DNA of 64,000 nt, from positions 62,001 to 126,000 of the forward strand of contig JAGLOP010000003.1 in assembly GCA_023138835.1 (NCBI GenBank). Direction: 5' to 3'. Source of the stretch: Arcobacteraceae bacterium (lineage in GTDB: Bacteria; Campylobacterota; Campylobacteria; Campylobacterales; Arcobacteraceae). Made by a program: the position numbers and the translations under genes. Positions within the stretch are counted from its first letter, which is position 1; each line of letters begins with the position of its first letter. Under the pieces are notes generated by a model, which worked only from the letters and a program-made list of their open reading frames with translations, did not search any database and had not been told where the DNA came from. Below, piece after piece: positions 46,506-64,000 of the stretch.

Positions 46506-46532
46506 ATTGTTAATTCCTCTTTTTTTTATAAC

Positions 46533-46934: not shown

Positions 46935-46947
46935 TTTATCTATCCTT

Positions 46948-47649
46948 TTAGAAATTTAATGAGGCTTTATAAATAAAATAAAACCCAATAACAATTAACA
47001 TTAAAATAAAAAAGGTATTTATATATTTACCTATTTTATTTAAAAATTTATTTGAAACTATACTTTGTGTAAAACCTATAGAGATACCTGCAAATAAAAG
47101 TAGACTAGCATGTCCTATTGCAAATACTAAAACTAAAATATAAGAGTAAATCCATCCCGTTTGTTCTGCAACAGTTATAATTGCAACTAATGGAGCAGAA
47201 GCACATGGACTACTTACAAGACCAAAAATAAGTCCAATAATAATTGCTCCATAAAGTTTATATTTTAAAAATCTATTTGTGATTTTATTTTTATCAAAAC
47301 TTCCAATCCATCCAAGAGAGAAAGCCACCACAATAAAAGTTGCAATTGAAGCTAAACCATAGGCCCAAAATGGAGCGACACTTAGCATCATTCCTACTTT
47401 TGCAACTATTAACATAAGAATTGAAAAGCTAATAATAAGTCCAACTACAAATAAAAATGAATATTTATAAATAAATAATTTCTTTTGTTTTTCATTTAAA
47501 TCACTACTTAAAGTTACTGCACTTCCTACTAAAAGAGGAAGTGTTACTATACTACAAGGAGCAAGGGCTGTTAAAATTCCAATACCAAAAGATGCTAATA
47601 TTGCATATATATCATAATTTTGTACATACTCTATTAAAATATTTTCCAT
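46948..47649 (-). CDS. ccdA: Cytochrome c biogenesis protein CcdA (thiol-electron transporter)
   Basis: A 233-aa membrane protein with six helices and the paired cysteines of CcdA/DsbD in ALAPCSIVTLPLL (helix 1) and LVSSPCASAPL (helix 4). It moves reducing equivalents from cytosolic thioredoxin to periplasmic partners. It begins immediately after the arsR stop and precedes the periplasmic thioredoxin gene, a likely redox pair. Confidence 0.92.
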   Translation of the reverse strand: MENILIEYVQNYDIYAILASFGIGILTALAPCSIVTLPLLVGSAVTLSSDLNEKQKKLFIYKYSFLFVVGLIISFSILMLIVAKVGMMLSVAPFWAYGLASIATFIVVAFSLGWIGSFDKNKITNRFLKYKLYGAIIIGLIFGLVSSPCASAPLVAIITVAEQTGWIYSYILVLVFAIGHASLLLFAGISIGFTQSIVSNKFLNKIGKYINTFFILMLIVIGFYFIYKASLNF

Positions 47650-47979
47650 CTATTTATCTTTTAATATTTCTTTTAATTTACACTCTTTATTTAATATGGG
47701 CATCTCTAGTTCCAAATAACTAATCTCTTCTAATACATTTTGTCTAAATTTATCAAGAGGTTTTCTAATACTGTAATAAGCCCAGCGACCTTTTCTATTC
47801 ACTTTTAAAAAGCCCGCTTCTTTTAATATTTTTAAATGTCGTGATATTCTTGATTGAATCATATCAAATGAATTTTCTATATCACATACACAAACTTCAT
47901 CATTTTCATTAATAAATCTAAGTATTTTTAATCGTGTTTCATCATTTATTGAACTAACTGTTTTAAGAAATATATCCAT
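47650..47979 (-). CDS. arsR: ArsR-family arsenic-responsive repressor
   Basis: A 109-aa winged-helix repressor. The metal-sensing motif EVCVCDIE (Cys30, Cys32) matches the ELCVCDL motif of As(III)-binding ArsR, and the recognition helix region is SRISRHLKILKEAG. The ATG follows AAAGGA. It heads the operon arsR-ccdA-trx-acr3. A dyad (48031-48052) lies just upstream of its -10 box, so it is presumably autoregulated. Confidence 0.95.
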   Translation of the reverse strand: MDIFLKTVSSINDETRLKILRFINENDEVCVCDIENSFDMIQSRISRHLKILKEAGFLKVNRKGRWAYYSIRKPLDKFRQNVLEEISYLELEMPILNKECKLKEILKDK

Positions 47980-48009
47980 AGATACTACATCCTTTTTTAA
48001 AATTTAGAA

Positions 48010-48015
48010 ATTATA
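48010..48015 (-). promoter_or_regulatory. Candidate -10 box for arsR
   Basis: TATAAT on the minus strand, about 30 nt upstream of the arsR start. The operator dyad begins 16 nt further upstream, overlapping the expected -35. Confidence 0.5.
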
Positions 48016-48030
48016 TCATAATATAGTCTA

Positions 48031-48052
48031 TATATCAAGATATATTGATATA
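48031..48052. promoter_or_regulatory. ArsR operator upstream of arsR
   Basis: TATATCAA and TTGATATA are perfectly complementary arms around GATATA, a 22-bp dyad with one central mismatch. It has the ATCAA-N6-TTGAT form typical of ArsR/SmtB operators and sits over the arsR promoter. Confidence 0.75.
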
Positions 48053-48092
48053 ATGTATAATATAAAATATTTCCACATTTTATTCAATTTCC

Positions 48093-48878
48093 TTATAGGT
48101 TATGTATCCCTGTTAAATTTGTATGACAAGTTGTACACTGCATTTTTCCTTGAGAATTATTTTTTACACTTGTTGTTCCTGTATGACATTTAAAACAAGA
48201 TTTTGTCTCTTGTGTAAATCTATACTGCGTTTTAAATGTGCCATTTAGTTCGGCATTTAAAAGTTCTACTGTTTTTTTTGCAACAGAAGCTGCACTTTGA
48301 GAGCATCTTTGTTTTTTTTCATAAGAATCTATCCCTTTTTTACTTTTTTTACACCATTTAGCCACAATGATATGACAAAGAACAGAACCTGAAATTGATG
48401 AAACTCCTTTTACTGGATTGGGAGTATTACTGTTATTTGAACTTAGTATAGCAACATCAACATTAGGTAGTGCTGTCTCTTCACTCCATATATAAAGTTC
48501 ATTAATGAGTTTTCTTGGATTTTTTGAAACCAATCCAATAGCAGCAGCTGCACCATTTAATGTTCCACAAAGAGTTCCCCAGCTTGCAACTCCACTTGCT
48601 CCATAGGACATCATCTCAAAAGGAAATGTTGAATACGGTGTTCCAAATCTATCTGCTAATTCACCTATGATAGCTTCAAAAACGGCGTACATACATCCAT
48701 GCTTATGATATCCTCTATAAGCCCTTGCTGCAACCAAATTAGAATCTAATTCTTTATATTCCCAAGGTACAGATGATACTTTTTCATTTGAGAAAACCGG
48801 TGCTGCAAGAAGAGTTGATGTAGCACTAAGAGCTAAACCACCAATTCCAGTTAAAGCCTTTCTTCTTGAATTATCCAT
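48093..48878 (-). CDS. Tat-exported split-Soret-like cytochrome c (C_GCAxxG_C_C family)
   Basis: A 261-aa precursor with a twin-arginine-like leader (NSRRKALTGIGG, cleavable to about LLAAP). The central domain resembles the C_GCAxxG_C_C redox family (KHGCMYAVFEAII, GASGVASWGTLCGTLNGAAAAIG). Two c-type heme motifs are at the C terminus: CFKCH (228-232) and CTTCH (248-252). This matches the split-Soret cytochrome of Desulfovibrio. It is located between arsM and the arsR operator, in the same direction as both. The electron partner is unknown. Confidence 0.85.
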   Translation of the reverse strand: MDNSRRKALTGIGGLALSATSTLLAAPVFSNEKVSSVPWEYKELDSNLVAARAYRGYHKHGCMYAVFEAIIGELADRFGTPYSTFPFEMMSYGASGVASWGTLCGTLNGAAAAIGLVSKNPRKLINELYIWSEETALPNVDVAILSSNNSNTPNPVKGVSSISGSVLCHIIVAKWCKKSKKGIDSYEKKQRCSQSAASVAKKTVELLNAELNGTFKTQYRFTQETKSCFKCHTGTTSVKNNSQGKMQCTTCHTNLTGIHNL

Positions 48879-48927
48879 AATTAACTCCTTTTATGAAATA
48901 AATTTATTTTTTGCTACAATTTATAGT

Positions 48928-49704
48928 TTATTTAACAGCTTCAATATTAGATGAAACAATATAATTTTCAATATTGTTAGACCAATCTTTTAAAAACTCT
49001 CTACTTTCGTTTTTTGGTGTAATTTTAATATTTTTAAATCCAGAATTTTGTAGCATGATTTTTAAATCATCTATAAAAACAGCTCCCGCAATACAGCTGC
49101 CATAACTATCCAAATCAATCATATCACTTGGTATATCTTTGGTTAAAACCACATCCGATATTGCCAATCTTCCACCTGTTTTTAAAACTCTATATGCTTC
49201 GTTAAAAACTCTTTGTTTATCAAGTGATAAATTAATAACGCAATTTGATATTATCACATCAATACTATTATCTTTTACAGGTAGATTTTCAATCTCTCCT
49301 AGCCTAAAATCTACATTTTGATACTTGTTGTCTTTGGCATTTTTTCTAGCTTTTTGTACCATTTCTCTTGTCATATCTACACCAATTACAAAACCCGTTT
49401 CTCCGACAGATTGCGAAGCTAAAAAACAATCCAACCCTGCACCACTTCCTAAATCTAAAACATTTTCACTTTTTTGAAATGATGCTATAGCAGATGGGTT
49501 ACCACAACCAAGACCCATATTGGATATATCAGGAATTGAATTTAACTGCTCTTGTGAGTATCCAAGATTAACAGAAGTATCATTGCTATTTATACTGCCG
49601 CCACAACAACTTGTATTGCATCCACAATCATCATTTGATACGGCAATCTTTGCATAGTTATTTACTATGGACTTTTTTTTTTCCTCTACTGTAAAATTTT
49701 TCAT
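48928..49704 (-). CDS. arsM: Arsenite S-adenosylmethionine methyltransferase
   Basis: Methylates As(III) to volatile or exportable methylarsenicals. The 258-aa protein begins with a Cys-rich stretch (CGCNTSCCGG), then LGCGNPSAIA (Cys67), SAM-binding motif LDLGSGAGLDCFLAS, ISNCVINLS and GSCIAGAV, giving the cysteines used by ArsM to hold arsenic. It lies upstream of the split-Soret-like gene on the same strand (49 nt gap). Confidence 0.93.
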   Translation of the reverse strand: MKNFTVEEKKKSIVNNYAKIAVSNDDCGCNTSCCGGSINSNDTSVNLGYSQEQLNSIPDISNMGLGCGNPSAIASFQKSENVLDLGSGAGLDCFLASQSVGETGFVIGVDMTREMVQKARKNAKDNKYQNVDFRLGEIENLPVKDNSIDVIISNCVINLSLDKQRVFNEAYRVLKTGGRLAISDVVLTKDIPSDMIDLDSYGSCIAGAVFIDDLKIMLQNSGFKNIKITPKNESREFLKDWSNNIENYIVSSNIEAVK

Positions 49705-50261: not shown

Positions 50262-51476
50262 TTATATATCAATAACAAAAACATTAAATCCATCATCATA
50301 AAAATATGAAAAATCAAAGTTATGTTTATCCAAAATTCTTTTTACCAAACTAAGCCCCAAGCCATAACCTTTTTGCTTTCTTGAATTGTCACATTGAGTA
50401 AAAACTTCACAGTAAAACTCCAAAGGTTTATCTAGTTTTTCACCTTTGCTTTTAATTGATATCTTTTTATCTTCTACAACTATAAATATAGGTTTTTGCG
50501 TGCTATATTTAAGTGCATTGTCTATTAGATTTTTTAGTGCAATTGAAAGGTAACTTAAGTCTGCCTTTATATCAAACTTTGACACAATTTTGATATCGAT
50601 AAGTGTTTCATCTTCTATAAAAAGTTTTGATAAAGCTTCACTAATCAGAGTTTCTATATTGAATTTCTCAAGTTTTAATTTATACCGATTCGCATTTAAT
50701 TTCTCAAGATGTAAAAGCTCACTTGTCATATCATCCATTTGTACCAATGCTTTATTTAATATTTTTTTATATTTACTATCTTCTATCATCTCTATAGCTA
50801 ATTTTGATTTAGCAATTGGTGTTTTTAGTTCATGCCCAATATCTCGTAATAATCTTTGTCTTGATGTGATTAACTCTTCAATATTAGAAGCCATTGAGTT
50901 AAAAGTGGTTGATACCTCTCCTATCTCATCATTGGTAATAATTTTAACTCTTGAACTATAATCTCCCTCTCCAAACTTTTTTATACTTTTTGAGATATTT
51001 TTTAAAGGATATATTATTTTTAGAATTATCAAAAATAAGATTATCAATATCGATATATCAGCTAAAATAAGATAATTTAGAAACTCTTTCTCCTCAAAAT
51101 TTTTATCTTGTGATAAATCTATCACTAAAATATCATCGTCAAGATACTTCATATAAAGTAAATATTTATCATCTTCATGTCGTAAAATTTTTATACTTGA
51201 TAAAGTAGTTTCATAATTGTATATAGTTTGAGATAAGTCAAAATAGTGTTGTTTATTTGTAATAATTTTAAATTCCAACTCTTTTAGTTTTCTTTTCAAA
51301 GAGTCTTGGTCGTTATTCGTTAGATATTTAAATAGTTCATCTGAGACTTGAATATATTTTTCTTTCAATAAAGATTCAAGCGTATCTTGTGTTAATTTAT
51401 TTGTTTTATTTGATACAAAAATCATCAAAGACAAACTAATTAAAAAGAGAATTAAAACTTTATTAAAAATTGACAT
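50262..51476 (-). CDS. ArsS-like sensor histidine kinase
   Basis: A 404-aa kinase with two membrane helices (about 5-22 and 136-155) flanking a ~110-residue periplasmic sensor, a HAMP domain, the dimerisation helix with phospho-His215 (DIGHELKTP), and a catalytic ATPase domain with N box NLIDNALKYS and G box KGYGLGLSLVK. Small periplasmic loop and HAMP follow the ArsS type of Campylobacterota, known for acid or metal response. It lies 3 nt behind its response regulator. Confidence 0.9.
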   Translation of the reverse strand: MSIFNKVLILFLISLSLMIFVSNKTNKLTQDTLESLLKEKYIQVSDELFKYLTNNDQDSLKRKLKELEFKIITNKQHYFDLSQTIYNYETTLSSIKILRHEDDKYLLYMKYLDDDILVIDLSQDKNFEEKEFLNYLILADISILIILFLIILKIIYPLKNISKSIKKFGEGDYSSRVKIITNDEIGEVSTTFNSMASNIEELITSRQRLLRDIGHELKTPIAKSKLAIEMIEDSKYKKILNKALVQMDDMTSELLHLEKLNANRYKLKLEKFNIETLISEALSKLFIEDETLIDIKIVSKFDIKADLSYLSIALKNLIDNALKYSTQKPIFIVVEDKKISIKSKGEKLDKPLEFYCEVFTQCDNSRKQKGYGLGLSLVKRILDKHNFDFSYFYDDGFNVFVIDI

Positions 51477-51479
51477 ATT

Positions 51480-52148
51480 TTAACATATAAATTTATACCC
51501 GATACCCCATACAGATTTTATGTATTGCGGGTCTTTTGGGTCATCACCTATTTTTTGCCGTAAATTACTTATATGCATATCTATTGTTCTGTCTTTTGTA
51601 TTATACTCTATGCCATTTACAGCATTTGATATAACTTCTCGGGACATTACTTTGTCACCATTTTGTAAAAACAGATGTAAAATATCATACTCTATTTGTG
51701 TCAAATCAACTAAATAACCATCTACTTTTATCTCCATTTTATCTTCGTCTATCTCAAAGTCACCTATAATTCTGCTTTTATTTATAGTCCTTCGTAAAAT
51801 TGCATTTATCCGAATCACCAATTCCCTTGGCTCATAAGGTTTAGCTAAATAATCATCAGCTCCCAAATCAAAGCCTAATATTTTATCACTTATCTGGTCA
51901 CGCGCAGAAGATATTATGATGGGTATAGTAGATATTTGTCTTATTTTTTTACATACATCAAAACCATCCATTTGGGGCAGCATCAAATCAAGTACAACTA
52001 GAGAGTAGTTGTTTTTATTATTTTCAAGATGTGCTAAAGCCTCTTTAGGTTTAGTAAAGGCTTCTACTTTAAAATCATAGTTTTGTAAATAATCAGTGAT
52101 AAGTTCTTGCATATCTAAATCATCTTCAATAAGTAAGATCTTTTGCAT
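51480..52148 (-). CDS. OmpR-family response regulator
   Basis: The 222-aa protein begins at the ATG at 52148, which overlaps the stop of the Spy-like gene (TGATG) and has GGAGGTGGAG upstream. The receiver has phospho-acceptor Asp54 (VVLDLMLP) and Lys in YLAKPYEP; the winged-helix DNA-binding domain contains DRTIDMHISNLRQKIGDD and ends with WGIGYKF. Cognate kinase follows. It probably controls the adjoining cytochrome and Spy-like genes. Confidence 0.94.
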   Translation of the reverse strand: MQKILLIEDDLDMQELITDYLQNYDFKVEAFTKPKEALAHLENNKNNYSLVVLDLMLPQMDGFDVCKKIRQISTIPIIISSARDQISDKILGFDLGADDYLAKPYEPRELVIRINAILRRTINKSRIIGDFEIDEDKMEIKVDGYLVDLTQIEYDILHLFLQNGDKVMSREVISNAVNGIEYNTKDRTIDMHISNLRQKIGDDPKDPQYIKSVWGIGYKFIC

Positions 52149-52519
52149 CACTCCACCTCCCAATCATCAAAATAGTGTATAAATTGTATTCTTTGTTTTA
52201 GGTTTAAAATAGTGTGTATTCTTTTTAATAACTTATTTTCTATATCATGTGCTTTTGTATCTAAAGTTAGATTGAGTTTATTTAACTTTTTTGTATCAAA
52301 AATCTCTTTTAAAAATATATCTTTTCTTTTATCTTCTATCTCTTCTTTTAGTTCTCTATATTCTTTTAGTTGGACTCTAAACTCTTTTAAAATCTTTTTT
52401 ATCTGTCTACTTTGTTTTTTCGATAAGTTTAGATGAGACAACTCTTTATTTATATGTCTATGATAACTATCAGATGCAAATAGATTAACAAAAAGTAAAA
52501 GTATAATCATAAGTTTCAT
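52148..52519 (-). CDS. Periplasmic Spy/CpxP-like protein 1
   Basis: A 123-aa precursor with a short signal peptide (about 1-15, ending LFA) and a long, charged helical mature protein (LSKKQSRQIKKILKEFRVQLKEYRELKEE, split here by type, and LNLKQRIQFIHYF) of the Spy/CpxP kind. It starts 3 nt after the cytochrome b561 gene and overlaps the response regulator by one base, joining the cytochrome cluster to the two-component genes. Confidence 0.78.
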   Translation of the reverse strand: MKLMIILLLFVNLFASDSYHRHINKELSHLNLSKKQSRQIKKILKEFRVQLKEYRELKEEIEDKRKDIFLKEIFDTKKLNKLNLTLDTKAHDIENKLLKRIHTILNLKQRIQFIHYFDDWEVE

Positions 52520-52522
52520 AAT

Positions 52523-53629
52523 TTATCCTCTAGGTATTTTAATATCTTTATCATTTAATAAACCTTGTTCGATATTATTGTGACAAGCTTTACAATTTGA
52601 TATTTTACCTACTTTTTTATTTTCAAATATTTTTTTATCAATATCATCATGTTTTCTTTTCCAATATAAAGTTTTTGTCATAGCTATTATATCTTTATCT
52701 TTAATACTTTTTAATATTTTATATGCTGATTCTTTTGTTGAATTTTCAGCACTATGAAGTATAAGATAAGCTTTTATAGATTCTTTATCTTCAACATCCA
52801 GTGAAGCATCATCACCAAAATGATTTTCTAAATTATCCATCATTTTTACCCAAGATTTTTTTGGTAGCAAAAATGGTGGATAGAGTGTATGGCAGCTTAT
52901 ACATTCATCATGGAACAATTTATGTTCCACTTTATAGTCAACAGGCTTGTTTGCATCAGCTATTAAAACATTTGAAGGTGTCATTAAAAGATAAACCAAT
53001 AAAGATATAGATAAACCTATCCATAAAATACCGAATAGTTTTTGAAATATTGTAAGCTCTAAACTTTCCTTATTGCCATCTTTATATCCAGTTATCATAG
53101 ATTCAACTGCTTTTGAATTATGAAAAAATCTATCTAATAAAACACCTGCAATATGGGCAAAAATTACAACCATAAAAGCATTTGCAAACAGTTCATGAAT
53201 ATCTTCAAATAAATCCATATCTTTAAACATTGAGATATTCAAAAAAGAAAGAACTCCCATTCCTTCTTGAGTACCATAAACAACCATTCCACTTAAAACT
53301 GATACTAAACCTAATATAATCATAGCCATAATAGCCCAACTTGAAGCTGGATTGTGACCTGTATATTGTTTTTTATTGCCAAAGATATTAAATATATACT
53401 CTTGCAAATCTTTCAAGTTAAAATTAAAATCTTTAAAATTTGAATATTTGACATCTAAAAATCCCCAGCCAATTCTAAAGATAAAAAGCGATGCTATAAC
53501 AAATCCAACTATTGCATGATATTCAAGAAGATTATCAAACTCTGCTGATATAAAAACTAGCCCTACTAAAATTACAATTAAAGTATGAAATAGCCTTGTA
53601 GGCAGGCTCCATACATATAACCTAGTCAT
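52523..53629 (-). CDS. Cytochrome b561 fused to a diheme cytochrome c domain
   Basis: A protein of about 368 aa. The N-terminal 225 residues are a b561-type membrane domain with four histidines suited to two b hemes (in numbering from the longer start: His19, His42, His149, His163). The C-terminal periplasmic domain has two c-heme motifs, CISCH (247-251) and CKACH (350-354), and is clearly homologous to the separate diheme cytochrome upstream. It likely carries electrons from quinol to the periplasm. The ATG at 53629 (MTRLYVW) is chosen; the ATG at 53641 is also possible. Both overlap the diheme gene. Confidence 0.9.
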   Translation of the reverse strand: MTRLYVWSLPTRLFHTLIVILVGLVFISAEFDNLLEYHAIVGFVIASLFIFRIGWGFLDVKYSNFKDFNFNLKDLQEYIFNIFGNKKQYTGHNPASSWAIMAMIILGLVSVLSGMVVYGTQEGMGVLSFLNISMFKDMDLFEDIHELFANAFMVVIFAHIAGVLLDRFFHNSKAVESMITGYKDGNKESLELTIFQKLFGILWIGLSISLLVYLLMTPSNVLIADANKPVDYKVEHKLFHDECISCHTLYPPFLLPKKSWVKMMDNLENHFGDDASLDVEDKESIKAYLILHSAENSTKESAYKILKSIKDKDIIAMTKTLYWKRKHDDIDKKIFENKKVGKISNCKACHNNIEQGLLNDKDIKIPRG

Positions 53630-54143
53630 CCCATTTTCCATAATTTGGAATTAGTATATCTCTTTCCCGATATATACCTTTATCTGCTGTTGTATGACAA
53701 GTTTTACAGTTGGCTAATGAACTTACCTCTTTTTGTTTGATAAGTTTTATAGGGATTTGCTTATGTTTTTTTATCATATATGGTGTTTTTGTAATAGCAA
53801 TAGGGGTAGAATATCTTGATATACTATTATTTATCCTTTTGCTTCTTTTATAGTTTGTAAACTTTTCAGCTGAATTATCAACTAAATATTTTAATATCTT
53901 TTGATTATCTTCAGGTTCTAAAGATGCATCGGTACCAAAATGGTCATCTAAACCACTCATAACTTTTTTCCAAGATCTGCTTGGAAGCAATCCAGCTTGA
54001 TAACCAAAATGACAACTTGCACACTCCTCTATATACAATTTATCAGTAGCCGGTGCTACACCTTTTCTTTGATTCCAACCCCATGAATCAGCTGCCAATA
54101 AATTACTAAAAATTAATATTCCAACAATAATTAAACTTCTCAT
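53622..54143 (-). CDS. Diheme cytochrome c (DHC family)
   Basis: A 173-aa precursor with a signal peptide (to about LLAA, residue 18) and two heme motifs, CASCH (41-45) and CKTCH (146-150). Between them is the DHC signature GLLPSRSWKKVM, DDHFGTDASLEPED. DHC is the redox partner of the SHP cytochrome in Rhodobacter-type clusters, and an SHP-like gene lies 10 nt upstream. Confidence 0.9.
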   Translation of the reverse strand: MRSLIIVGILIFSNLLAADSWGWNQRKGVAPATDKLYIEECASCHFGYQAGLLPSRSWKKVMSGLDDHFGTDASLEPEDNQKILKYLVDNSAEKFTNYKRSKRINNSISRYSTPIAITKTPYMIKKHKQIPIKLIKQKEVSSLANCKTCHTTADKGIYRERDILIPNYGKWDD

Positions 54144-54153
54144 AACTTATCCT

Positions 54154-54573
54154 TTACTTTTTATTGATGATATAAGTTACTACATCACCTTTTTCTTGTG
54201 CGGTTCCAACTCTATTGTAAACATCTCTAAAATTTCTTCTGAGCCATTTTTTGACATTTTTAACTTTTGTAAATCTTGAAGAATCTGCCAATGGAGAGAG
54301 CGGTTCAATCACTTTATTGGTATTTACATTTATACCTTTCTTTGATAAATCACTTGAATGGCAGCTAACACAAGAGATAAGTTTACCCTTTTTGCCAATA
54401 TACTTAGTTGTGAAAATCTTTTCACCTCTTATGTAGTCAAATCCTTTAAATTTTGGATTTTCTTTTTGTGCTTGTGTCTCTAAAGTTTTCATATATTCTT
54501 TCATTGAGGTATTTAACTCAACTGCATGAACTAATGAAACCATAATAACCAAAGCTGTTAATATTTTTTTCAT
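54154..54573 (-). CDS. DUF1924 c-type cytochrome (SHP-like)
   Basis: A 139-aa precursor with a signal peptide (about 1-17) and one heme motif CVSCH (Cys68, Cys71, His72), followed by INVNTNKVIEPLSPLAD, RFTKVKNVKKWLRRN and GDVVTYI, as in the DUF1924/SHP family. SHP is a high-spin cytochrome c that can bind oxygen or NO. It is first in the three-gene cytochrome run and its ATG follows AAGGAG. Confidence 0.88.
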   Translation of the reverse strand: MKKILTALVIMVSLVHAVELNTSMKEYMKTLETQAQKENPKFKGFDYIRGEKIFTTKYIGKKGKLISCVSCHSSDLSKKGINVNTNKVIEPLSPLADSSRFTKVKNVKKWLRRNFRDVYNRVGTAQEKGDVVTYIINKK

Positions 54574-54720
54574 CTTCTAACTCCTTTTAACTTTTTGATA
54601 TTAAAAGTATAAGGGAAGTTTGTCAATATTGTATTTACTGTTATTTACAGTTTCTTTACAAATAGAAGAAAGATTTTGATTTTATATTTTTGATGATATT
54701 TATTTAGTATGATAATAAAT

Positions 54721-54752
54721 ACAGATAACACTTCAAAGTTGGTGTTATCTGT
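54721..54752. terminator. 11-bp hairpin between EF-hand gene B and the cytochrome cluster
   Basis: ACAGATAACAC (54721-54731) pairs perfectly with GTGTTATCTGT (54742-54752), loop 10 nt. It lies about 40 nt past the EF-hand gene B stop on the minus strand, followed there by AT-rich sequence but no clear T run. Termination or regulatory use is possible. Confidence 0.5.
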
Positions 54753-54766
54753 ACGTTAGATGTAGA

Positions 54767-54786
54767 GACTATCTAAATTGATAGTC
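54767..54786. terminator. 7-bp hairpin directly after EF-hand gene B
   Basis: GACTATC and GATAGTC form a perfect stem with a 6-nt loop immediately downstream of the EF-hand gene on the minus strand. Together with the hairpin at 54721-54752 it forms a double stem-loop. Confidence 0.4.
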
Positions 54787-54791
54787 CTTAT

Positions 54792-55406
54792 TTACCTTTT
54801 TCTCATTTGATTTGCAATAAACTCTTGCTTGTTTACTCTTCCATCATTGTTTCTATCAATATCCGAGAATTTAGTCTGATTACCACTGTTTCTCATCATT
54901 TTACCTTGTGATGCTTGTTGTTGCATTCTTTGAGCTCTAGCCTCATTCATCTCATTGCTAGTTAAATATCCGTCACCGTTTAAATCGTAACTTTCAAATG
55001 TCGGCATATTTCGTCTCATACCTTGCTTATTTCCTTGTCTATTATTCATCTTCCCTTGTTTTTTAGAACCTCTATTGGCTCTGTTTTTTTGCATCTGTGC
55101 ATTTTGCCCCTCTAACAATTCCATTTTAGTTATTCTTCCATCACTATTGGCATCAAAAACTTCAAATTCAGGAGCATTTCCAGCTTTTCTCATAGCTTTA
55201 CCTTGAGCTGCTTTTTTTGACATTCTCCTAGCTCTTGCATCATAAAATTCACTCTGACTTACAAAATTATCATTATTGCTATCATAAACTGAAAATGAAA
55301 TAGGACCTCTATCAGGTATATTTTGTGCTACTAAACTACTAGACACCATTGATAAAGCACCAACAACCACAAGACTTAAATTCACTTTTTTTACTAAATT
55401 TTTCAT
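54792..55406 (-). CDS. Exported EF-hand calcium-binding protein (paralogue B)
   Basis: A 204-aa protein with a signal peptide (to about SSLVA) and four EF-hand-like loops (DSNNDNFVSQSEF, DANSDGRITKMEL, DLNGDGYLTSNEM, DRNNDGRVNKQEF), separated by the same Met/Gln/Arg-rich linker as paralogue A. The first loop has Asn in place of the central Gly (DSNNDN). A G8 tract occupies the ribosome-binding site. It lies between the RND pump and the cytochrome cluster. Its periplasmic role is unknown. Confidence 0.88.
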   Translation of the reverse strand: MKNLVKKVNLSLVVVGALSMVSSSLVAQNIPDRGPISFSVYDSNNDNFVSQSEFYDARARRMSKKAAQGKAMRKAGNAPEFEVFDANSDGRITKMELLEGQNAQMQKNRANRGSKKQGKMNNRQGNKQGMRRNMPTFESYDLNGDGYLTSNEMNEARAQRMQQQASQGKMMRNSGNQTKFSDIDRNNDGRVNKQEFIANQMRKR

Positions 55407-55500: not shown

Positions 55501-58500
55501 TTAGCTTTTCTTCAATCCATGCAAAAAATTATACATAACAGGAAGATAAAAAAGATTTAATATTGTTCCCCATAAAAGCCCAAATCCAATAGTAACCGCA
55601 AGCGGCTGAAAAGTCACTGCTTGAGCAGATGCAAAAAATATCAATGATGAAAGACCTATAATAGTTGTGATAGATGTAAGTATAATAGGTCTGAATCTTC
55701 TTTTTGCAAGATCAAATATATCATCTTTATGTTTAGCAGTTTTTATTGTAGCCATCATAATAATACCGTCATTTACAATAACTCCAGCAAGTCCCAATGC
55801 ACCTATCAAAGATGGCAGAGAGATATTTAATCCCATTATATAATGACCTATAAATACCCCTAGAAAAGAAAATGGTATTACTGACATAACTATAAAAGTT
55901 TCTCTTAAAGAATTAAAAAGATAAAGCATAGCCATAAAGATTAAAATTATAGCAAGTGCAGAGGCTAAAACCATTTCAGCTTCTAAAGTTTTCTTTTGCT
56001 CTGCTTCCCCTTTAAACTTTAATCTTATCCCCTCTTTCTTTAATTTTTTTATAATAGGTTCTATTTTTTCCATAACTTCACTTGCCGTTATAACAGACGG
56101 ATTTACATTTGCAAAAACATAAAAATTTGTTTCACCGTCATCTTTAACCAATCTTTCTAAAGAGTGTATCTTTTCAAATTTACATATATCTTTTAGAAGT
56201 ACAAATGAACCATCTTTTAGAGGAATTTCAAGTCTATTAAAATGTGAGAAATCATCTTTATTGAGTGATTTAATTTTTACATCTAAAAGCTCTTTATCAT
56301 CAAATATTACACCACTGGTCTTTGAAAGGTAGAGGTCTGAGATATAAGTACCTAGATATTTTTCTGTAATTCCCAGTTTTTCACCATAACTGTTTATTTT
56401 TAATTTTATCTCATCCGCACCCATTTTAATATTATCTCCAAAATATTTTATCCCTTCAATATTCTCAAAACCATTTTCTATATCTCTAACCGCTTTTATA
56501 GCTTTTTGATAATTATCACTTACAACACCAATTCGAATATCAGCTTTTACATGACCCATTCGTCTCTCAACAACCATTAGATTGCTTAATTTAAATCTTT
56601 TTTTATATTTTTGTTTTTTTAGCCATGATCTTAGACTTTTTGATATTTTTTGTGAAGATATATCTCTTGTTCTATCTTTATCATCATAGTAAAAGCTTAA
56701 ATATGGAGTGATATAAATATCAACAAAATTTGAAGGCTTTTTCTTATAAAGTTCAATTGAGATATATCCAACATAAGGATACATTTCTGCACTTCCTGTG
56801 GCACTTCTTCTATATCCGGCAGTTGAACTTACATTTTTAACAAAAAATCTATCTCTGTTTTTTAATATATCTTTCTCTATAGTTTGTACTATTTCTAATG
56901 ATTCCTCAAGAGTGGTTGTAGGTTTTGCTTTAAATGTTATATTTATTGACGTTGCATCAAAAGATTGGAACATTTGAAATTTAGAATGCTTGATACCGCT
57001 ATAAATTAAAACAGGTACTATTATTATAAAAACAAGTAAAAAACTTTTTTGAAATCTTACAAATATTCGTAATAGTTTCGAATATAGCTCGTTTACCCTA
57101 TCCCACGAAAGCGTTCTTGAATTTTTACTTAATGTATGAGTAGCATGGATGGGCAAGAAAACAAATGACTCTATAAGCGAAGCAATTACCAAGGCACTAA
57201 ATGCAATAGGTACAAGCTGTATTATCTCTCCTAATCTTCCACTTAACATCAATAAAGGTATAAAAGCAAACAAAGTTGTCAAAGTTGCAAGAGTTACTGG
57301 CTTTGCCACCTCTTTTGTACCTAAAAATGCAGCCTCTTTTGCTGAATACCCTTTTTCAATATATTGTTGTATATTTTCACTGACCACTATGGCATCATCA
57401 ACAATAATACCAATAGCTATTAAAACACCTATTAAAGAATTTACATTTATACTGTATCCTGTAAAATAAAAATAGATGCTCCCTATCATAAAAGATGTCG
57501 GTATACCCAGTGCTATGATAAATGCCATACGGATATTTATAAGTAAAAAGGTTAAAAAAGTTATAAGTATCACTGCTAATAAAATATTTGAAATAACAAT
57601 ATTCAGCCTGTCTTTGATTATAGTAGATTGATCCCTTCTAATATCAAAATCAACATCTTTAACATCCATTTTAGATATAAGTTTATTTATATTGTCAGCT
57701 ATTTTTATCGCATCACCTTTTGGGTTTTGTGAAACTGCCAAAGTTATGGAGTTTTTACCATTCATACTGGCTAAGGTTGCAGAGTCTTCATAGCGTTTAT
57801 TAATTTTTGCTATATCTTTTAACATAATCATTTGGTCATTGATATTTAAGATGGTATTTTCAAATTCATTTGCAAATTTTTTACCATTAGATGTAGAGAG
57901 ATAATACTGTTCTTTAACATCTTCAATTTTACCCAAAGGATATATATATGATAATTCAGAAATTATCTGTAATATCTCCTCCAAAGAAAGATTGTATGCA
58001 TCAATTTTTTTCTCATCAATCAAAATTTCATAAAAGCGGTCAGAGTCCCCAAATATCGTTACATCAGAAATATCTTTTAGTGAAAGAAGTCTGCTTTTAA
58101 AACTTTTTGCCAAATCTTTTAATTTGTAATTCGGCAACTTTGTGGAAAGTATGGATACATGCATTATACTTCTTGAATGAGCTGCAGTTCTTACAACAGG
58201 TTCATCCATATCACTTGGAAGATTTGATTTAATAGAAGTTATAGCATCTTTAACATCTTCGGTTACTTTTAATTTATCAGCCCCTTTATCAAGTTCTAAA
58301 ATTATAGTAAATCTACCTGGAGATATAACGGAGGTAATGGAATCTACGCCATCAATATTTTTTGTTTCATCCTCTATTTCTTGAACTGCCATTTTGTTTA
58401 ATATATCAACAGAAGCCCCGCTGTAACTTCCTCTAACAGTTACAGAATGAGGCTCAATAGTAGGAGAGATCTCTTTTGGTATTTGAGTATAAGAATAAAT

Positions 58501-58581
58501 TCCTACTGCAAAAAGTAGGAAAAATAGAGTATAGTTTATTTTGTAGTTTTCAATAAAAAATTTTAATACTCTATCAAACAT
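55501..58581 (-). CDS. RND efflux transporter permease subunit (paralogue 2)
   Basis: A 1026-aa RND pump, similar along its full length to the one at 14104-17184 (same length, shared GSYSGASVDILNKMAV, proton-relay GIIVDDAIVVSENIQQ and terminal NDGIIMM, RFRPIILTSITTIIG). It starts 5 nt after the stop of the double-cubane activator gene, so it appears to belong to that operon. No membrane-fusion or outer-membrane partner is encoded here. The substrate may relate to the operon's redox chemistry, but nothing in the sequence shows what it is. Confidence 0.92.
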   Translation of the reverse strand: MFDRVLKFFIENYKINYTLFFLLFAVGIYSYTQIPKEISPTIEPHSVTVRGSYSGASVDILNKMAVQEIEDETKNIDGVDSITSVISPGRFTIILELDKGADKLKVTEDVKDAITSIKSNLPSDMDEPVVRTAAHSRSIMHVSILSTKLPNYKLKDLAKSFKSRLLSLKDISDVTIFGDSDRFYEILIDEKKIDAYNLSLEEILQIISELSYIYPLGKIEDVKEQYYLSTSNGKKFANEFENTILNINDQMIMLKDIAKINKRYEDSATLASMNGKNSITLAVSQNPKGDAIKIADNINKLISKMDVKDVDFDIRRDQSTIIKDRLNIVISNILLAVILITFLTFLLINIRMAFIIALGIPTSFMIGSIYFYFTGYSINVNSLIGVLIAIGIIVDDAIVVSENIQQYIEKGYSAKEAAFLGTKEVAKPVTLATLTTLFAFIPLLMLSGRLGEIIQLVPIAFSALVIASLIESFVFLPIHATHTLSKNSRTLSWDRVNELYSKLLRIFVRFQKSFLLVFIIIVPVLIYSGIKHSKFQMFQSFDATSINITFKAKPTTTLEESLEIVQTIEKDILKNRDRFFVKNVSSTAGYRRSATGSAEMYPYVGYISIELYKKKPSNFVDIYITPYLSFYYDDKDRTRDISSQKISKSLRSWLKKQKYKKRFKLSNLMVVERRMGHVKADIRIGVVSDNYQKAIKAVRDIENGFENIEGIKYFGDNIKMGADEIKLKINSYGEKLGITEKYLGTYISDLYLSKTSGVIFDDKELLDVKIKSLNKDDFSHFNRLEIPLKDGSFVLLKDICKFEKIHSLERLVKDDGETNFYVFANVNPSVITASEVMEKIEPIIKKLKKEGIRLKFKGEAEQKKTLEAEMVLASALAIILIFMAMLYLFNSLRETFIVMSVIPFSFLGVFIGHYIMGLNISLPSLIGALGLAGVIVNDGIIMMATIKTAKHKDDIFDLAKRRFRPIILTSITTIIGLSSLIFFASAQAVTFQPLAVTIGFGLLWGTILNLFYLPVMYNFLHGLKKS

Positions 58582-58586
58582 AAATT

Positions 58587-59408
58587 CTAATTATCCTCAT
58601 CTTTATTTGTAATTTCATACTCATACGATTCATGTGCTAATATTGCAGCTCCGTATGAAGTGGTAATTTGTGGAAACTCAGGGATAAAAATCTCTTTTCC
58701 CAATTCATTTTCAATAGCATAAACCAAACCACCATTAAGTGCAGGTCCACCATCAAAATATATTCCCTCTTTTATACCAACTCTTTTTACAAGTTTTATA
58801 ACTCTTTTTGCAATAGAGTAGTGAACCCCGGCAACTATATCTTCAACACTATGGTTATTTCCTAAAAGTCCTATTATCTCTGATTCTGCAAATACTGCAC
58901 AAGTACTGTTAATTGCAAGTGGCGTACCTTCTGATTTAAAATGACACTCACCTAACTCATCAACTTCAAGTTCCAAATTCATAGCAACCACATCCAAAAA
59001 TTTTCCAGTTCCTGCGGCACATCTGTCATTCATAGCAAAGTTTACTACATTTCCCTCACTATCAAGTGAGATAGCTTTTGAATCCTGACCACCTATATTT
59101 ATAATGGTCTTTATTTCGCAATTCTGTCCGGCAGCTGCAACTGCACCAATTGCATTTGCTGTTATCTCACTTATATTTTCATCTGCTTCTTTAAATAATT
59201 TTCTTCCATATCCTGTTGAAACAGTATATACTAAATCTTTTTCATCAATACTTAACTCTTCAAGCATCTCTTTTAAACTTTGTTTTGCATACTTATAAAA
59301 CATACTACCGCTGGCACTTATTTTATGTCCTACTAATTGCTTACTTTCATCTACCAGTGCTACTTTTATAGCGGTTGAGCCTATATCTATCCCTGCGAAA
59401 TATTTCAC
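58587..59408 (-). CDS. ATP-dependent activator of a 2-hydroxyacyl-CoA dehydratase/double-cubane protein
   Basis: A 273-aa ASKHA ATPase of the BadF/BcrA/HgdC type. It has the phosphate motif GIDIGSTAIKVALVD, a second nucleotide motif INIGGQDSKAI, and cysteines Cys130 (NDRCAAGTG) and Cys170 (NSTCAVFAE) that hold a [4Fe-4S] cluster at the dimer interface. It uses ATP to push an electron to very low potential onto its partner. Its ATG overlaps the partner's stop by 4 nt (ATGA). Confidence 0.92.
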   Translation of the reverse strand: MKYFAGIDIGSTAIKVALVDESKQLVGHKISASGSMFYKYAKQSLKEMLEELSIDEKDLVYTVSTGYGRKLFKEADENISEITANAIGAVAAAGQNCEIKTIINIGGQDSKAISLDSEGNVVNFAMNDRCAAGTGKFLDVVAMNLELEVDELGECHFKSEGTPLAINSTCAVFAESEIIGLLGNNHSVEDIVAGVHYSIAKRVIKLVKRVGIKEGIYFDGGPALNGGLVYAIENELGKEIFIPEFPQITTSYGAAILAHESYEYEITNKDEDN

Positions 59409-60685
59409 TTCTGTTTCCTTCTTCTGTTTTTAAGCGACTCTACAAATGCCTCTATTCTAGTTGTTAGTTGTCCTAAGTGACTTGGAGAATAATCACTTTC
59501 AAGATAAAGTATAGGTATTTTTTCTTTTTCCATTGCCATTAAAACTGATCTTTGTTCCATCTCATATACTTGACATCCTGCAAATGCTTGATAAACAACA
59601 CCCTCAGCTTTATAGTCTTTAACTAAATCTATTATTCTTCTTATTCTATCATTATTTTTTGTAAAAATTGGACAGGTACACCCTTTTAAGTATCTATCAG
59701 CAACCGAATCAACCATATCATTTACAAACCACTCATCAACACTTACCATATCGTTAAACATTCTATTTGAACTGCAAGTTTCATCTGCAACAATTATAGC
59801 ATCTGATTGTTCAATCAAAAGTGGTATTTTTAGATTTGGAAATATTGGAGGGGAACCAGTATAAACAATTCTTGGACTTCTTTTATGTGCAGCATTTACT
59901 TCATCTTTAACTCTTTGTTCACACTCTTTTAAAAGTAGTTTTACAGCTTCCATCCAATTATCTATTTTATCAAAAAAGAATGCATTGGTAACTAAAAACA
60001 TATCTTTTCCTAAAATAGGTGATTTACTGTTTTTTCGCAAACTATTTAGTTGATGATAAAGGTATTGAGCATAACCAACTTTTTTAATGGCCTCTTTTAA
60101 TTTCTTTTTTGTCAGCTTTTTATTTAAATCAAGTGATAACTCTTTTGTAAATTTTCTTACACTTCTTCGCCAATACTCACGGCTCTCTGCACTCTCTTTT
60201 GTTCGTGGAAACTCCATATCATAAACACTATAACCCATATCTTCAATTATAGCTCCTGATTTTGCTTTTTGGTCACAAGTAGTTGGAGAGATTATCACAT
60301 CCGGTTTATCTGTAAAATTTTGTGATGCAAACTGTCCTACGGTTGCTTTTACCAAAGGACATGATTTTGCAGGAAGTAAGTCACTTCCAATTTCATCATC
60401 TGTATAAAAACCATTACATAATCTAACAGGTACAGCATCCAGTGCGTATATTACCTCTGAGGGCACTTGAATACACATCGTTCCAACTTTTGCTTTGTCA
60501 TCATGCAAAGACTCATGTTTGCAATGTACTTTTTCATAAAGATCATAAAAATAATTCATAGCTTTAGGGTGCTGGGTAAAGTCCTCTTTTATTGTATTAA
60601 GTACTTTAATAGCTTCCATCGCTTTATGGCGATTTTGCCTCTCTTTTGGAGTTTCTATTTTGTGTTTTTTAATATCTTTAGTCAT
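59405..60685 (-). CDS. 2-hydroxyacyl-CoA dehydratase-like / double-cubane cluster protein
   Basis: A 426-aa protein of the HgdB/DUF2229 group. Nine or more conserved cysteines are visible, including Cys55, Cys71, Cys90 (VRLCNGF), Cys109 (KSCPLV), Cys137 (TTCDQK), Cys304 (ETCSSN), Cys336/338 (KGCTCP) and Cys371 (AGCQVYE). Pairing of a single HgdB-like subunit with one activator, without HgdA or CoA-transferase genes, fits the double-cubane cluster proteins (DCCP) rather than a fermentative dehydratase. The true substrate is unknown. It overlaps the upstream ferredoxin-protein gene by 8 nt. Confidence 0.88.
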   Translation of the reverse strand: MTKDIKKHKIETPKERQNRHKAMEAIKVLNTIKEDFTQHPKAMNYFYDLYEKVHCKHESLHDDKAKVGTMCIQVPSEVIYALDAVPVRLCNGFYTDDEIGSDLLPAKSCPLVKATVGQFASQNFTDKPDVIISPTTCDQKAKSGAIIEDMGYSVYDMEFPRTKESAESREYWRRSVRKFTKELSLDLNKKLTKKKLKEAIKKVGYAQYLYHQLNSLRKNSKSPILGKDMFLVTNAFFFDKIDNWMEAVKLLLKECEQRVKDEVNAAHKRSPRIVYTGSPPIFPNLKIPLLIEQSDAIIVADETCSSNRMFNDMVSVDEWFVNDMVDSVADRYLKGCTCPIFTKNNDRIRRIIDLVKDYKAEGVVYQAFAGCQVYEMEQRSVLMAMEKEKIPILYLESDYSPSHLGQLTTRIEAFVESLKNRRRKQK

Positions 60686-61658
60686 CTTTTTTCTCCCACT
60701 TATCCATCTGCATCCTTTTTGTAAAACCGCCTTTAGTTGAAGTAAATACTTTCATATTTAAAATATCTACATGCAAAGCATCATCTTCAGGGCAGGCAGC
60801 TACACATTTCATACAAAGAATACAATCATCTCTTAAAATATTTTTACTTGTTATATCATCAGCTATATCTTTTATCTGCATATCACAGACATTGTAACAA
60901 TCGCCGCATTTAGTACATTTATCACCATCTTTTTTAAGTTTTATAAGTGCAGCATCACTAAAGATATAATGCATTGCACTCATAGGGCAGAAAAAACAGA
61001 AAAATCTTTTTTTGATAAATGACCCTACAAAAAACAAACCTGTAATAATCAATCCTAAAGAGGTCAAAATCATCGCACTTTTTGTTGAGAAATTTAAACT
61101 CCATTGTGAAGTATCGCCAACAAACAGAGGTGTTATCATACGTCCTGGACATATTTCACAAAAAGCAGTTCTCCACTCGCCGCCCAATAGTCCCATACCA
61201 ACACCCATAGGTGCTAAGATTACAAGGGCTAACATAAGATATTTTATTTTTTTGAGCTTTTGGAATTGAGGTTGAGTGTAAGTGCTGTATCTAATACCCA
61301 TTCTTTTTCGCAAACTTGTAAGCCAATCTTGCATAGTCCCTAAAGGGCAGGCATAACCACACCAAGCTTTATTAAATACGATAAACCATACTAAGAAAGT
61401 TATAAAACCAATTAAAACTGAGATACTAGCTACACTGAAAAGTACATCTAAAGGGCGGGCAAGTTGATGCTGTAATGGTAAAAAATAACACATTCCCCCA
61501 ACTTCTCTATCATATCCACATGAAAATATAGGGATACTATTTCCTAAATTTATAGAAAAATATCCCCCATATATAAAGATTATAAAAAAGAACAGCTGCA
61601 GCCAAAAACGAAATCTACTTATATCTGCATTGTTTATAAAATCTTTAATCTTTTGCAT
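60678..61658 (-). CDS. NapH/CcoG-like membrane polyferredoxin
   Basis: A protein of about 326 aa with four or five membrane helices, cytoplasmic CxxxCP motifs (WCGYACPLG, FCFFCPMSA, FCEICPG) and two C-terminal [4Fe-4S] ferredoxin sites (CTKCGDCYNVCD and CILCMKCVAACPED). It probably passes electrons between the membrane and the cytosolic cluster protein. The ATG at 61658 has AGAGGTG upstream; the longer frame from 61715 lies inside the neighbouring gene. It overlaps both neighbours (14 nt and 8 nt). Confidence 0.88.
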   Translation of the reverse strand: MQKIKDFINNADISRFRFWLQLFFFIIFIYGGYFSINLGNSIPIFSCGYDREVGGMCYFLPLQHQLARPLDVLFSVASISVLIGFITFLVWFIVFNKAWCGYACPLGTMQDWLTSLRKRMGIRYSTYTQPQFQKLKKIKYLMLALVILAPMGVGMGLLGGEWRTAFCEICPGRMITPLFVGDTSQWSLNFSTKSAMILTSLGLIITGLFFVGSFIKKRFFCFFCPMSAMHYIFSDAALIKLKKDGDKCTKCGDCYNVCDMQIKDIADDITSKNILRDDCILCMKCVAACPEDDALHVDILNMKVFTSTKGGFTKRMQMDKWEKKDD

Positions 61659-63999
61659 CAAAACGCACCTCTTGAAATGGCTTTTCTCTTCTTTTTCTAT
61701 ACCAATAAATAACAAATCCAGAGATAATCATAGCTGTTGTAGCTGCTAATAATCCATAAGCATACGATTTATATCCACTTACTTCAGGATAATAAACACT
61801 TGGATAAGTTGCAGTATATATTATCTTTTCATACTCTTCATCATCATACTTCCCTTTGATATCTTTTGTATAAGATGCAGTTAATAAAAATTCACTTTTA
61901 TGTCTTCTATCAAACTTATTCCATTGTGGAAAATAATCTTTTAAAAGGGTAAATGCAGCGATACCATCTTTATTTGTTTTTATAGTTTTTGACCATCCTG
62001 TTTTTGTTGATAGAGTCAGATCAGCTCCCTTAATAGGTTTGCCATCTAAGATAACTTTTATTCTCATTTTTTCACCAGAATATAAACGATGAAAAAAAGT
62101 TTCCCCTTTTTCTCTAATTCTTAAAATATCAAAAGGAACTTCTTTTATACTATGTTCTGACATCTTTTGTTCATCATAAACTGCATCATTACTATGGTTA
62201 AATCTTCTATATTCATATTTTGCAACTGTATTATATAAAATACCCTCATCAACCATTTTATCACTGTAAAAAAGATTATAGTATCCGTTGTCAGGCATTT
62301 TAAAACTTACTGTTTTACATCCTAGTTTTCTTCCCTGTCTAGCTTTTGTCACTTTTAAATTGAAATCTAGCAAATATAAATCGGCACTTATGTCTTTGAT
62401 ACAATTTAACTTGTTTGAATCATCTTTGAAAATAGGCCATACTTTTTTAGTAGGAACTTGTCCTCGTGAACCACCATGCATATGACCGCCACCGCCTCGT
62501 TTTTTCTTTGCAGCTGGATTTTTATCTACAAAATAGACAATATCTGCAGGTAATGGATTGTTTGCCATTCTATTTTCAGCAGTGTCAAAATCTTTCATTG
62601 CAATTTTTAAAGCAGTTTCAAAATCTACAACTTTTCCTTTGTATCGTTTTGAGAATACAATAGCATCTTTTTTATTTGCAAATGCATATTTACTAACTTC
62701 ACTCATAGTAGCTTTTTTCTTACTTCCAACAACATAAAATGCACTACTGGCATCTATAAATTTCAAGGTTTTAACATCAACCACTTTAAAATCTTTTATA
62801 GGCATTTTTTTAACATTTTTTTCCTCAGCCAAACAATGTATAGAACAATATTGTCTATCTTTTCCACCTAAATGTGCTGCATGATTTGTTTTATAAAACA
62901 TAGGAAGTTTCATACCACAAGCGATACATGAAGTTTTGTTTTTTCCTGATTGTAAAAGAGTTGCTTTATCATTTGGTACGGTTTGGAACATACCTGCACC
63001 GCCGTGATTTCCATGACCGCCAGATGCTCTTCCGTAAGTATCTATAATATAACCTCTGTATATATTAACACTTAAGAAGAAGATTATCAATGAAGCTGCA
63101 AAAGGATATGCTAATATTTTTCGCATTTTTGTTACATCAAGAAGTTTCATTCTTTTATAAAGTATGATTAAAGCCCAAGTAATAGCAACCCATTTTAATA
63201 GACCAAACATATGAAGCCAGCTGTCACCTCTTTTTGCCAATGATGCAACTTCAACTGTTAAACCAAAACCTTGAGCAAAACCTTCAACTATTTGTTTATA
63301 ACCTCGCATAAAAAATGTTTCAAGTGAGTGAGCAATTGAACCTAAAATAAATAAAGGAGCATAAGAGTACCCAAGATCATAAAATGTACTGCTAAAATCT
63401 TTTTTAAGTATTTTAGATGCTACAAACATACCAATTACAGCAGCTAAAACTGTAAACAATACAGCATATAAAAATGCAAACAATCCAATAGGATCAATTG
63501 AACCAAAACTGATATAACCTTTTAAAGTTTCAGCAGTTGTTGACCAGATCATATCCCCTGCTGCATTACTTCTACCAATACCGTGATGAAATGACATAGT
63601 TATAGGAATAGATGCTAAAATAAGAATAAATGCCCAAATTTCAGCTTTTACAATTTTGAATTTTGACCATAATGAAAATGATGGTTTTTTATATTTAAAA
63701 CTTACAGCTTCACAAGCATCACTACAATCCATACATAAAGTACAATCAGACATAGAATTTTTTTTATCAAATGTAAATGGTTTTAGATGATAAGGACAAG
63801 CTGTTGCACACTCAAATGTTTTACACTCATCACATGCACTTTTGTAAGTTCCAAGCCAAGTAAAAGATAGTTTTCCATAAGCACGGGTTAAAGTTCCAAT
63901 AGGACAGATATATTTACAATAACTCATATCTTTATATATAAAATAAATTACAAATGATACTAGAGTCAGTACAGTAAACATTATGGCAGTTCCCAATGG
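61645..63999 (-). CDS. Membrane polyferredoxin-NosL fusion with beta-domain tail (5' end outside window)
   Basis: Open at the window edge, so the N terminus is missing; about 784 residues are visible. Order: membrane segment; ferredoxin-type cysteines (CKYICP, CDECKTFECATACP, CTLCMDCSDAC); about five membrane helices; a Gly/His linker (SGGHGNHGGAG); a NosL domain near 355-460 with CIACGM and CSIHC; a second Gly/His stretch (GGGGHMHGG); a beta-rich region (about 560-720) resembling DUF4198; a final membrane helix and basic tail. The NosL part closely matches the protein at 38006-38731. The N-terminal part recalls NosR/CcoG. Electron transfer and copper handling are inferred. Confidence 0.85.
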   Translation of the reverse strand, partial: PLGTAIMFTVLTLVSFVIYFIYKDMSYCKYICPIGTLTRAYGKLSFTWLGTYKSACDECKTFECATACPYHLKPFTFDKKNSMSDCTLCMDCSDACEAVSFKYKKPSFSLWSKFKIVKAEIWAFILILASIPITMSFHHGIGRSNAAGDMIWSTTAETLKGYISFGSIDPIGLFAFLYAVLFTVLAAVIGMFVASKILKKDFSSTFYDLGYSYAPLFILGSIAHSLETFFMRGYKQIVEGFAQGFGLTVEVASLAKRGDSWLHMFGLLKWVAITWALIILYKRMKLLDVTKMRKILAYPFAASLIIFFLSVNIYRGYIIDTYGRASGGHGNHGGAGMFQTVPNDKATLLQSGKNKTSCIACGMKLPMFYKTNHAAHLGGKDRQYCSIHCLAEEKNVKKMPIKDFKVVDVKTLKFIDASSAFYVVGSKKKATMSEVSKYAFANKKDAIVFSKRYKGKVVDFETALKIAMKDFDTAENRMANNPLPADIVYFVDKNPAAKKKRGGGGHMHGGSRGQVPTKKVWPIFKDDSNKLNCIKDISADLYLLDFNLKVTKARQGRKLGCKTVSFKMPDNGYYNLFYSDKMVDEGILYNTVAKYEYRRFNHSNDAVYDEQKMSEHSIKEVPFDILRIREKGETFFHRLYSGEKMRIKVILDGKPIKGADLTLSTKTGWSKTIKTNKDGIAAFTLLKDYFPQWNKFDRRHKSEFLLTASYTKDIKGKYDDEEYEKIIYTATYPSVYYPEVSGYKSYAYGLLAATTAMIISGFVIYWYRKRREKPFQEVRFDAKD

Positions 64000-64000
64000 T

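Follow-up and report, generated by a model that had tools for sequence, protein, structure and literature searches.

Introduction

The DCCP/DCCP-R pair of Carboxydothermus hydrogenoformans (PDB 6eno, 7yyl) is encoded by one HGD-D-type gene and one gene for an ATPase activator, and its double-cubane cluster protein (DCCP) uses its own cluster to reduce acetylene, hydrazine and azide, with a natural role that was still termed unknown in 2025 (PMC11971306). The HGD-D fold, with the same kind of activator, is also that of the 2-hydroxyacyl-CoA dehydratases and the class I benzoyl-CoA reductases. This work concerns an operon in which a protein of the double-cubane kind stands together with a TonB-dependent outer-membrane receptor; it reaches into one end of a stretch of 64,000 nucleotides (here called the window) from an Arcobacteraceae bacterium, namely positions 62,001 to 126,000 of the forward strand of contig JAGLOP010000003.1 (C22:62001-126000 in our numbering) in the assembly GCA_023138835.1, a genome of 2.1 Mb in 28 contigs that is 86.6% complete.

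Receptors of this class have been found beside inner-membrane electron conduits in FoxB/HiuABC and in the PepSY-DUF2271-DUF4198 systems, often with a DUF4198 protein, and a reductive release of metal in the periplasm has been proposed or shown for them (PMC12424826, PMC8238504); in HiuABC, the receptor paired with such a reductase serves xenosiderophores (PMC12424826). The DUF4198 proteins bind Ni with a Kd of 18 nM and are found near TonB receptors (PMC12537917), in Caulobacter they are Fur-regulated along with TonB receptors (PMC3751524), and they form part of the PepSY clusters held to reduce periplasmic iron (PMC8238504, PMC12004947). The NapH-like ferredoxins, for their part, are thought to carry electrons across the membrane and can accept them from quinol (PMC8238504).

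The operon shares something with each of these systems and coincides with none of them. As in C. hydrogenoformans, there is one HGD-D-type gene with one activator and the six cysteines are kept, but the clade to which the window protein belongs always has a DUF4198 protein and NapH as neighbours, and in most cases a TonB receptor too, and it differs from the dehydratases and benzoyl-CoA reductases in having one HGD-D gene. It resembles FoxB/HiuABC in the pairing of receptor and electron conduit; however, no PepSY, DUF2271 or FMN domain and no Fur box were found, and the source of the electrons would be iron-sulfur proteins together with an ATP-driven module. With NosR, NapH and NosL it has in common the polytopic CxxCxxxCP iron-sulfur proteins and a NosL domain; unlike NosR, the window protein lacks FMN_bind and is fused to DUF4198, and the set is tied to a TonB receptor rather than to a terminal reductase gene, with NosZ not being required.

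Results

The genes for the receptor, DsbD_2, the DUF4198-type protein, the NapH-like protein, the DCCP-like protein and its ATPase are conserved as a single block, all in the same orientation. Within the window the operon is represented by five open reading frames on the minus strand (55501-64000), with overlaps of 14, 8 and 4 nucleotides and then a gap of 5, exactly as the original prediction, made from the window alone, had described them; the families that it proposed were likewise borne out by hidden Markov models. In the order of transcription, these encode a membrane ferredoxin with NosL and DUF4198-like domains (61645-64000), a NapH-like membrane ferredoxin of 326 residues (60678-61658, from its ATG), the DCCP-like putative reductase of 426 residues (59405-60685), an HgdC/HadI-type ATP-dependent activator of 273 residues (58587-59408) and an accessory RND transporter of 1026 residues (55501-58581). 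The operon does not begin there, since the first of these genes continues past the edge at 64000, its complete product having 918 residues (L002:7646-10402), and beyond the edge, in the same direction, a DsbD_2 gene (219 residues) lies 25 nucleotides upstream of it and a TonB-dependent receptor gene (692 residues) a further 14 nucleotides upstream, at the operon head. The five predicted genes are thus real and rightly placed, and the prediction lacked the receptor and DsbD_2, which the window edge had hidden.

The 426-residue protein scores 346.7 bits with the double-cubane model NF040772, 3.3 bits short of the curated equivalog cut-off of 350, and far less with the models for BzdN and HadC (81 and 72 bits). 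Its matches to solved structures follow the same order, with the C. hydrogenoformans DCCP (PDB 7yyl/6eno) matched over the full length with an E-value of 1e-61, BzdN with 1e-18 and HadC with 3e-12. Residues C71, C109, C137, C304, C338 and C371 align with C36, C73, C100, C263, C293 and C327 of BzdN, which are the six ligands of its [8Fe-9S] cluster (PMC11971306), and all six are invariant among the homologues; the [8Fe-9S] cluster of the window protein is putative. We name the protein DCCP-like because its score falls just below the curated cut-off and its clade sits on a long branch. The gene carries the single PF06050 match of the genome (at the completeness given above) and adjoins the activator gene with the 4-nucleotide overlap, which is the arrangement of a single gene, as for a homodimer, plus ATPase seen for DCCP; as it is the sole HGD-D gene, the protein is unlikely to belong to a dehydratase or benzoyl-CoA reductase of two subunits. 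A 2-hydroxyacyl-CoA dehydratase was accordingly considered and rejected, given that one HGD-D gene affords no heterodimer and that the model scores are much lower. The earlier assignment of this HgdB-like protein to the double-cubane type, and not to the dehydratases, therefore agrees with the model scores, the structural matches and the six cysteines, and the grouping with true 2-hydroxyacyl-CoA dehydratases that would have spoken against it does not occur. The activator reaches 229.5 bits with TIGR00241 (cut-off 125.4) and matches PDB 4eht with an E-value of 1.7e-61; its C130 and C170, the bridging-cluster cysteines, align with those of 4eht and are invariant in 56 sequences.

In the 918-residue protein, Pfam recognises two Fer4_5 domains, NosL at 488-595 (51.9 bits) and a weak DUF4198 at the C terminus (25.7 bits, gathering threshold 34), with no match to FMN_bind; the cysteine motifs at 82/85, 162/166, 190-202 and 220-230 are invariant in 36 homologues. 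The initial description of it as a fusion of polyferredoxin and NosL was incomplete, having missed the third domain, at residues 640-918 (61648-62484). An AlphaFold2 model of these residues, built from an alignment of 39 sequences, has a predicted local distance difference test score of 86, and in Foldseek its first matches in the PDB (9mhl and 9gcb rank first) are Zcp with zinc, cobalt or copper (E-values 2.6e-9 to 1.5e-8), followed by the Ni-bound DUF4198 of Ideonella (2.4e-6); the domain is predicted to be a periplasmic, metal-binding fold of the DUF4198 type. An HxHGG motif and H736 are kept in most members of this first type in Campylobacterota, and HxHGG also in those of Gammaproteobacteria and an acidobacterium. 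There is a second DUF4198-like type, shorter, with a signal peptide and cysteine pairs (SCC, HHINCC), which gave no Pfam match in the members scanned and whose predicted fold yields the same top structures, that is, metal-bound DUF4198; both types finish with a single membrane helix followed by a conserved tail on the cytoplasmic side. NosL is found by Pfam in the window protein, in that of L052 and in ten further proteins, and is missing from most of the other ferredoxin proteins, judged by their length, while PepSY_TM had no match among the operon proteins scanned. The NapH-like protein has Fer4_5 and two 4Fe-4S motifs, with every ferredoxin cysteine invariant in 61 sequences. Four cysteines of the DsbD_2 protein are conserved across 47 sequences, which fits a redox protein without proving it.

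Two groups of DCCP homologues can be told apart in 298 Campylobacteria genomes, one of 19 with identities of 64-85% and the others, which reach about 34% at most, apart from the window's own copy and a short 76% fragment in G252. All 19 loci of the near group, which are spread over 17 of the 298 genomes and five families, adjoin a ferredoxin/DUF4198 gene, and in almost every one NapH and the activator are there as well; the 22 distant loci checked had no NapH, ferredoxin or receptor nearby (22/22). In one of the distant groups (L146-L150), the activator gene precedes the DCCP gene rather than following it. A separate named scan gave 68 loci with the same block, in Sulfurimonas, Sulfurovum, Sulfuricurvum, Arcobacter, Hydrogenimonas and others, and also in Gammaproteobacteria, Rhodocyclaceae and Bryobacterales (an acidobacterium among them); a campylobacterotal-type copy labelled Petrimonas (Bacteroidota, L084) was set aside as a probable mis-binned contig. 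Most of the loci come from metagenome assemblies, and several of the genomes that bear the operon are single contigs. In the maximum-likelihood tree, the linked DCCPs all group in a single clade (71 rows, support 100/100), separated from the C. hydrogenoformans DCCP by a very long branch.

The shared order, which recurs at each of the 19 near loci and at the 68 named ones, is receptor, (ExbB-ExbD), DsbD_2, ferredoxin/DUF4198 protein, NapH, DCCP, ATPase and then often TonB. In 36 complete neighbourhoods, the DUF4198-type gene is present in all 36, NapH in 34, DsbD_2 in 32, and the activator and a same-strand receptor in 31 each; the two absences of NapH (L076, L114) look like artefacts of open reading frame picking, and L120 and L129 carry a divergent receptor. 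Most of the gene order is thus kept far beyond this genome, as the original prediction required, and its further claim that no system of this composition had been described is in line with the literature searched here, where no paper combining “double-cubane” and “TonB-dependent” was found.

The operon has several variants. L047, L049, L050 and L100 have two receptor-DUF4198-NapH modules with a single DCCP and activator, which suggests that one DCCP powers several modules. L151-L162 have a simpler operon, receptor-(ExbBD)-ferredoxin-(RND)-TonB, without NapH, DCCP, activator or DsbD_2, a pairing of receptor and ferredoxin that is of interest by itself; that of L159 directly follows genes for a regulator and a kinase with 55% and 44% identity to those beside the window operon. 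From these DCCP-less operons, receptor and ferredoxin look like the base, DCCP like an addition, and RND seems to go with the base. The window-type RND gene lies directly downstream of the activator in 17 of 71 loci, with a second RND type in three more, and RND also occurs beside receptor and ferredoxin gene in the DCCP-less L151, L152 and L156. The pump, taken at the outset for a core partner, is missing in about three quarters of the loci and present without DCCP, and is therefore optional and accessory, its association being with the receptor and not with DCCP. The window pump (ACR_tran, 481.7 bits) has no membrane-fusion or outer-membrane partner beside its gene (54-59 kb) that would make it tripartite; L057 has, by inspection, the second RND type with both partners. 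A consensus scan for a promoter of its own was uninformative, with 76 promoter-like sites against 69 in shuffles.

The 692-residue receptor has the plug and barrel of TonB receptors by Pfam and scores 207.2 bits with the siderophore-receptor model TIGR01783, under the curated cut-off of 223.5. An assignment of its ligand from solved structures was tried and rejected, the receptors giving PQQ (pyrroloquinoline quinone) receptors, Cir/BtuB or no match at all. Compared with the window copy, the receptors diverge most (median identity 38%) and DCCP (72%) and the activator (79%) least, a pattern to be expected where the ligand changes and the chemistry stays the same. The genes for ExbB, ExbD and TonB are often within the operons of the relatives. 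In the window they lie apart, on the minus strand: ExbB (39910-40353; C22:101913-102353) is the only ExbB match in the genome and, being 63% identical to the ExbB of the L044 operon, is probably the energiser of the receptor; ExbD (39540-39953) adjoins it and is, by inspection, a homologue of the ExbD in the relatives' operons; and a TonB-like protein with KP repeats (38801-39547, by inspection) adjoins ExbD.

Discussion

The receptor, ExbB, ExbD and TonB, DsbD_2 and the DUF4198 domain together indicate the uptake of a metal chelate, and there is about an even chance, in our judgement, that the operon combines TonB-dependent uptake, most likely of a metal chelate, with a redox step by which the metal is released in the periplasm. 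The presence of DCCP in the block suggests that a nitrogenase-like, ATP-driven reductase helps to strip the metal from the imported chelates. In such a scheme, the receptor would bring the metal-ligand complex into the periplasm; the activator would hydrolyse ATP, pushing electrons of very low potential into the cytoplasmic [8Fe-9S]-type protein; NapH, together with the larger membrane ferredoxin where present, would carry them across the membrane; the DUF4198 domain (and NosL) would hold the complex or the released metal during the reduction; and the RND pump, where present, would remove the empty ligand. The very low potential would be useful where the ferric complex of a ligand, for instance a catecholate, is beyond the reach of ordinary periplasmic reductases, and the loci with receptor and membrane ferredoxin alone would represent the system without the boost. 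Such electrons would be needed for ferric catecholates (near -750 mV) but not for copper or hydroxamate complexes. Which metal is involved, which way the electrons flow and what the pump does are inferred, the second of these from gene content only. The original prediction had the electrons running from the membrane to DCCP, which may be so, but the operons that have two receptor-DUF4198-NapH modules and one DCCP are more easily reconciled with the opposite direction. The fuller proposal, that the ATP-driven double-cubane reductase powers a transmembrane export of electrons and thereby reduces a TonB-imported chelate of very low potential in the periplasm, is advanced tentatively, as a possibility that we would hold with some doubt.

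Several points weigh against these proposals. We know of no case in which electron export from a DCCP has been shown. The solved structures of DUF4198 hold Ni, Zn, Co or Cu, not Fe, and HxHGG is missing from the second DUF4198-like type, which has cysteine pairs instead. The nearest solved relatives of the receptor are PQQ receptors, the second receptor type is as close to Cir as it is to BtuB, and no ligand is assignable. Fur boxes upstream of about 65 operon starts were not enriched over shuffles, in a scan without a positive control, and it is a two-component system, not Fur, that adjoins several of the operons. Finally, DCCP is known for reducing small molecules at its own cluster (PMC11971306).

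Another view is that the imported compound enters the cytoplasm, where the DCCP-like protein itself would reduce it with electrons fed inward by NapH and the membrane ferredoxin. The retention of every cluster cysteine would agree with it, as would the reduction of acetylene, hydrazine and azide already mentioned (PMC11971306) and the capacity of NapH-like proteins to draw electrons from quinol (PMC8238504). It nevertheless seems rather unlikely, in that no inner-membrane importer is conserved in the operons, where DsbD_2 is the only candidate, the domain with the metal-binding fold is predicted to be periplasmic, and several modules share a single DCCP in the multi-module operons. Moreover, the potential of quinol is far from the usual feed of an ATP-driven low-potential module.

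The same genes might serve the acquisition of copper for nitrous oxide reductase or cytochrome oxidase, with chelated Cu(II) brought in, the ferredoxins reducing it and NosL taking the Cu(I), and this would account for the fusion of NosL in the window protein and in those of ten or more other operons, for the second set of NosL genes next door, for the clade II nos cluster some 14 kb off on the same contig and for the copper-bound Zcp among the fold matches. We regard it as improbable: NosZ is found in just 9 of the 17 operon genomes, so that a role for NosZ is not general, NosL is missing from most ferredoxin proteins (judged by length), the receptor has no match to the TonB copper-receptor model, and Cu(II) needs no low-potential electrons. 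A module that detoxifies or respires a small oxyanion or metal and exports through the RND pump would be in keeping with the RND gene 5 nucleotides after the activator and with the arsenic resistance genes nearby in the window, but RND is optional and tied to the receptor rather than to DCCP, the arsenic-type methyltransferase gene was not seen in the operon loci of the relatives, and TonB, ExbB and ExbD indicate import, which makes such a module highly improbable.

What is described here is a previously undescribed gene set, in many sulfur-oxidising bacteria and their relatives, in which an outer-membrane nutrient receptor is joined to iron-sulfur proteins of the membrane and to an ATP-driven reductase, and a deeply conserved operon that gives a clade of DCCPs a concrete and testable role. 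If reductive periplasmic release powered by DCCP were true, it would be the first natural role for DCCP, it would add a third energy input, ATP-made low-potential electrons, to those of TonB and the importer in outer-membrane nutrient uptake, and it would connect the metal nutrition of Sulfurimonas, Sulfurovum, Sulfuricurvum, relatives of Arcobacter and some Proteobacteria with electron chemistry of the nitrogenase kind.

Neighbouring genes

Divergently from the receptor gene run genes for an OmpR-type regulator and a kinase, and then the NosL, DsbD_2, NosL, FtsX and ABC genes (L002:14924-19501), which encode a NosL-like protein of 170 residues, a DsbD_2 protein of 235, a double-NosL protein of 381, an FtsX permease and an ABC ATPase; relatives of the double-NosL protein are widespread in the class. 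The clade II nos cluster, with NosZ and accessory genes (L169:5652-18261), lies about 14 kb upstream of the operon head. Within the window, positions 43680-49704 hold an arsenic-type cluster, with an ArsP_1 permease, an ACR3-like transporter, a thioredoxin, a DsbD_TM protein, an ArsR-type regulator and an ArsM-like methyltransferase, and positions 50262-55406 a two-component system, two proteins with dihaem-cytochrome (DHC) domains, one of them a cytochrome b561 fusion, and an EF-hand protein, to which a second EF-hand-like protein at 44636-45307 is similar in design.

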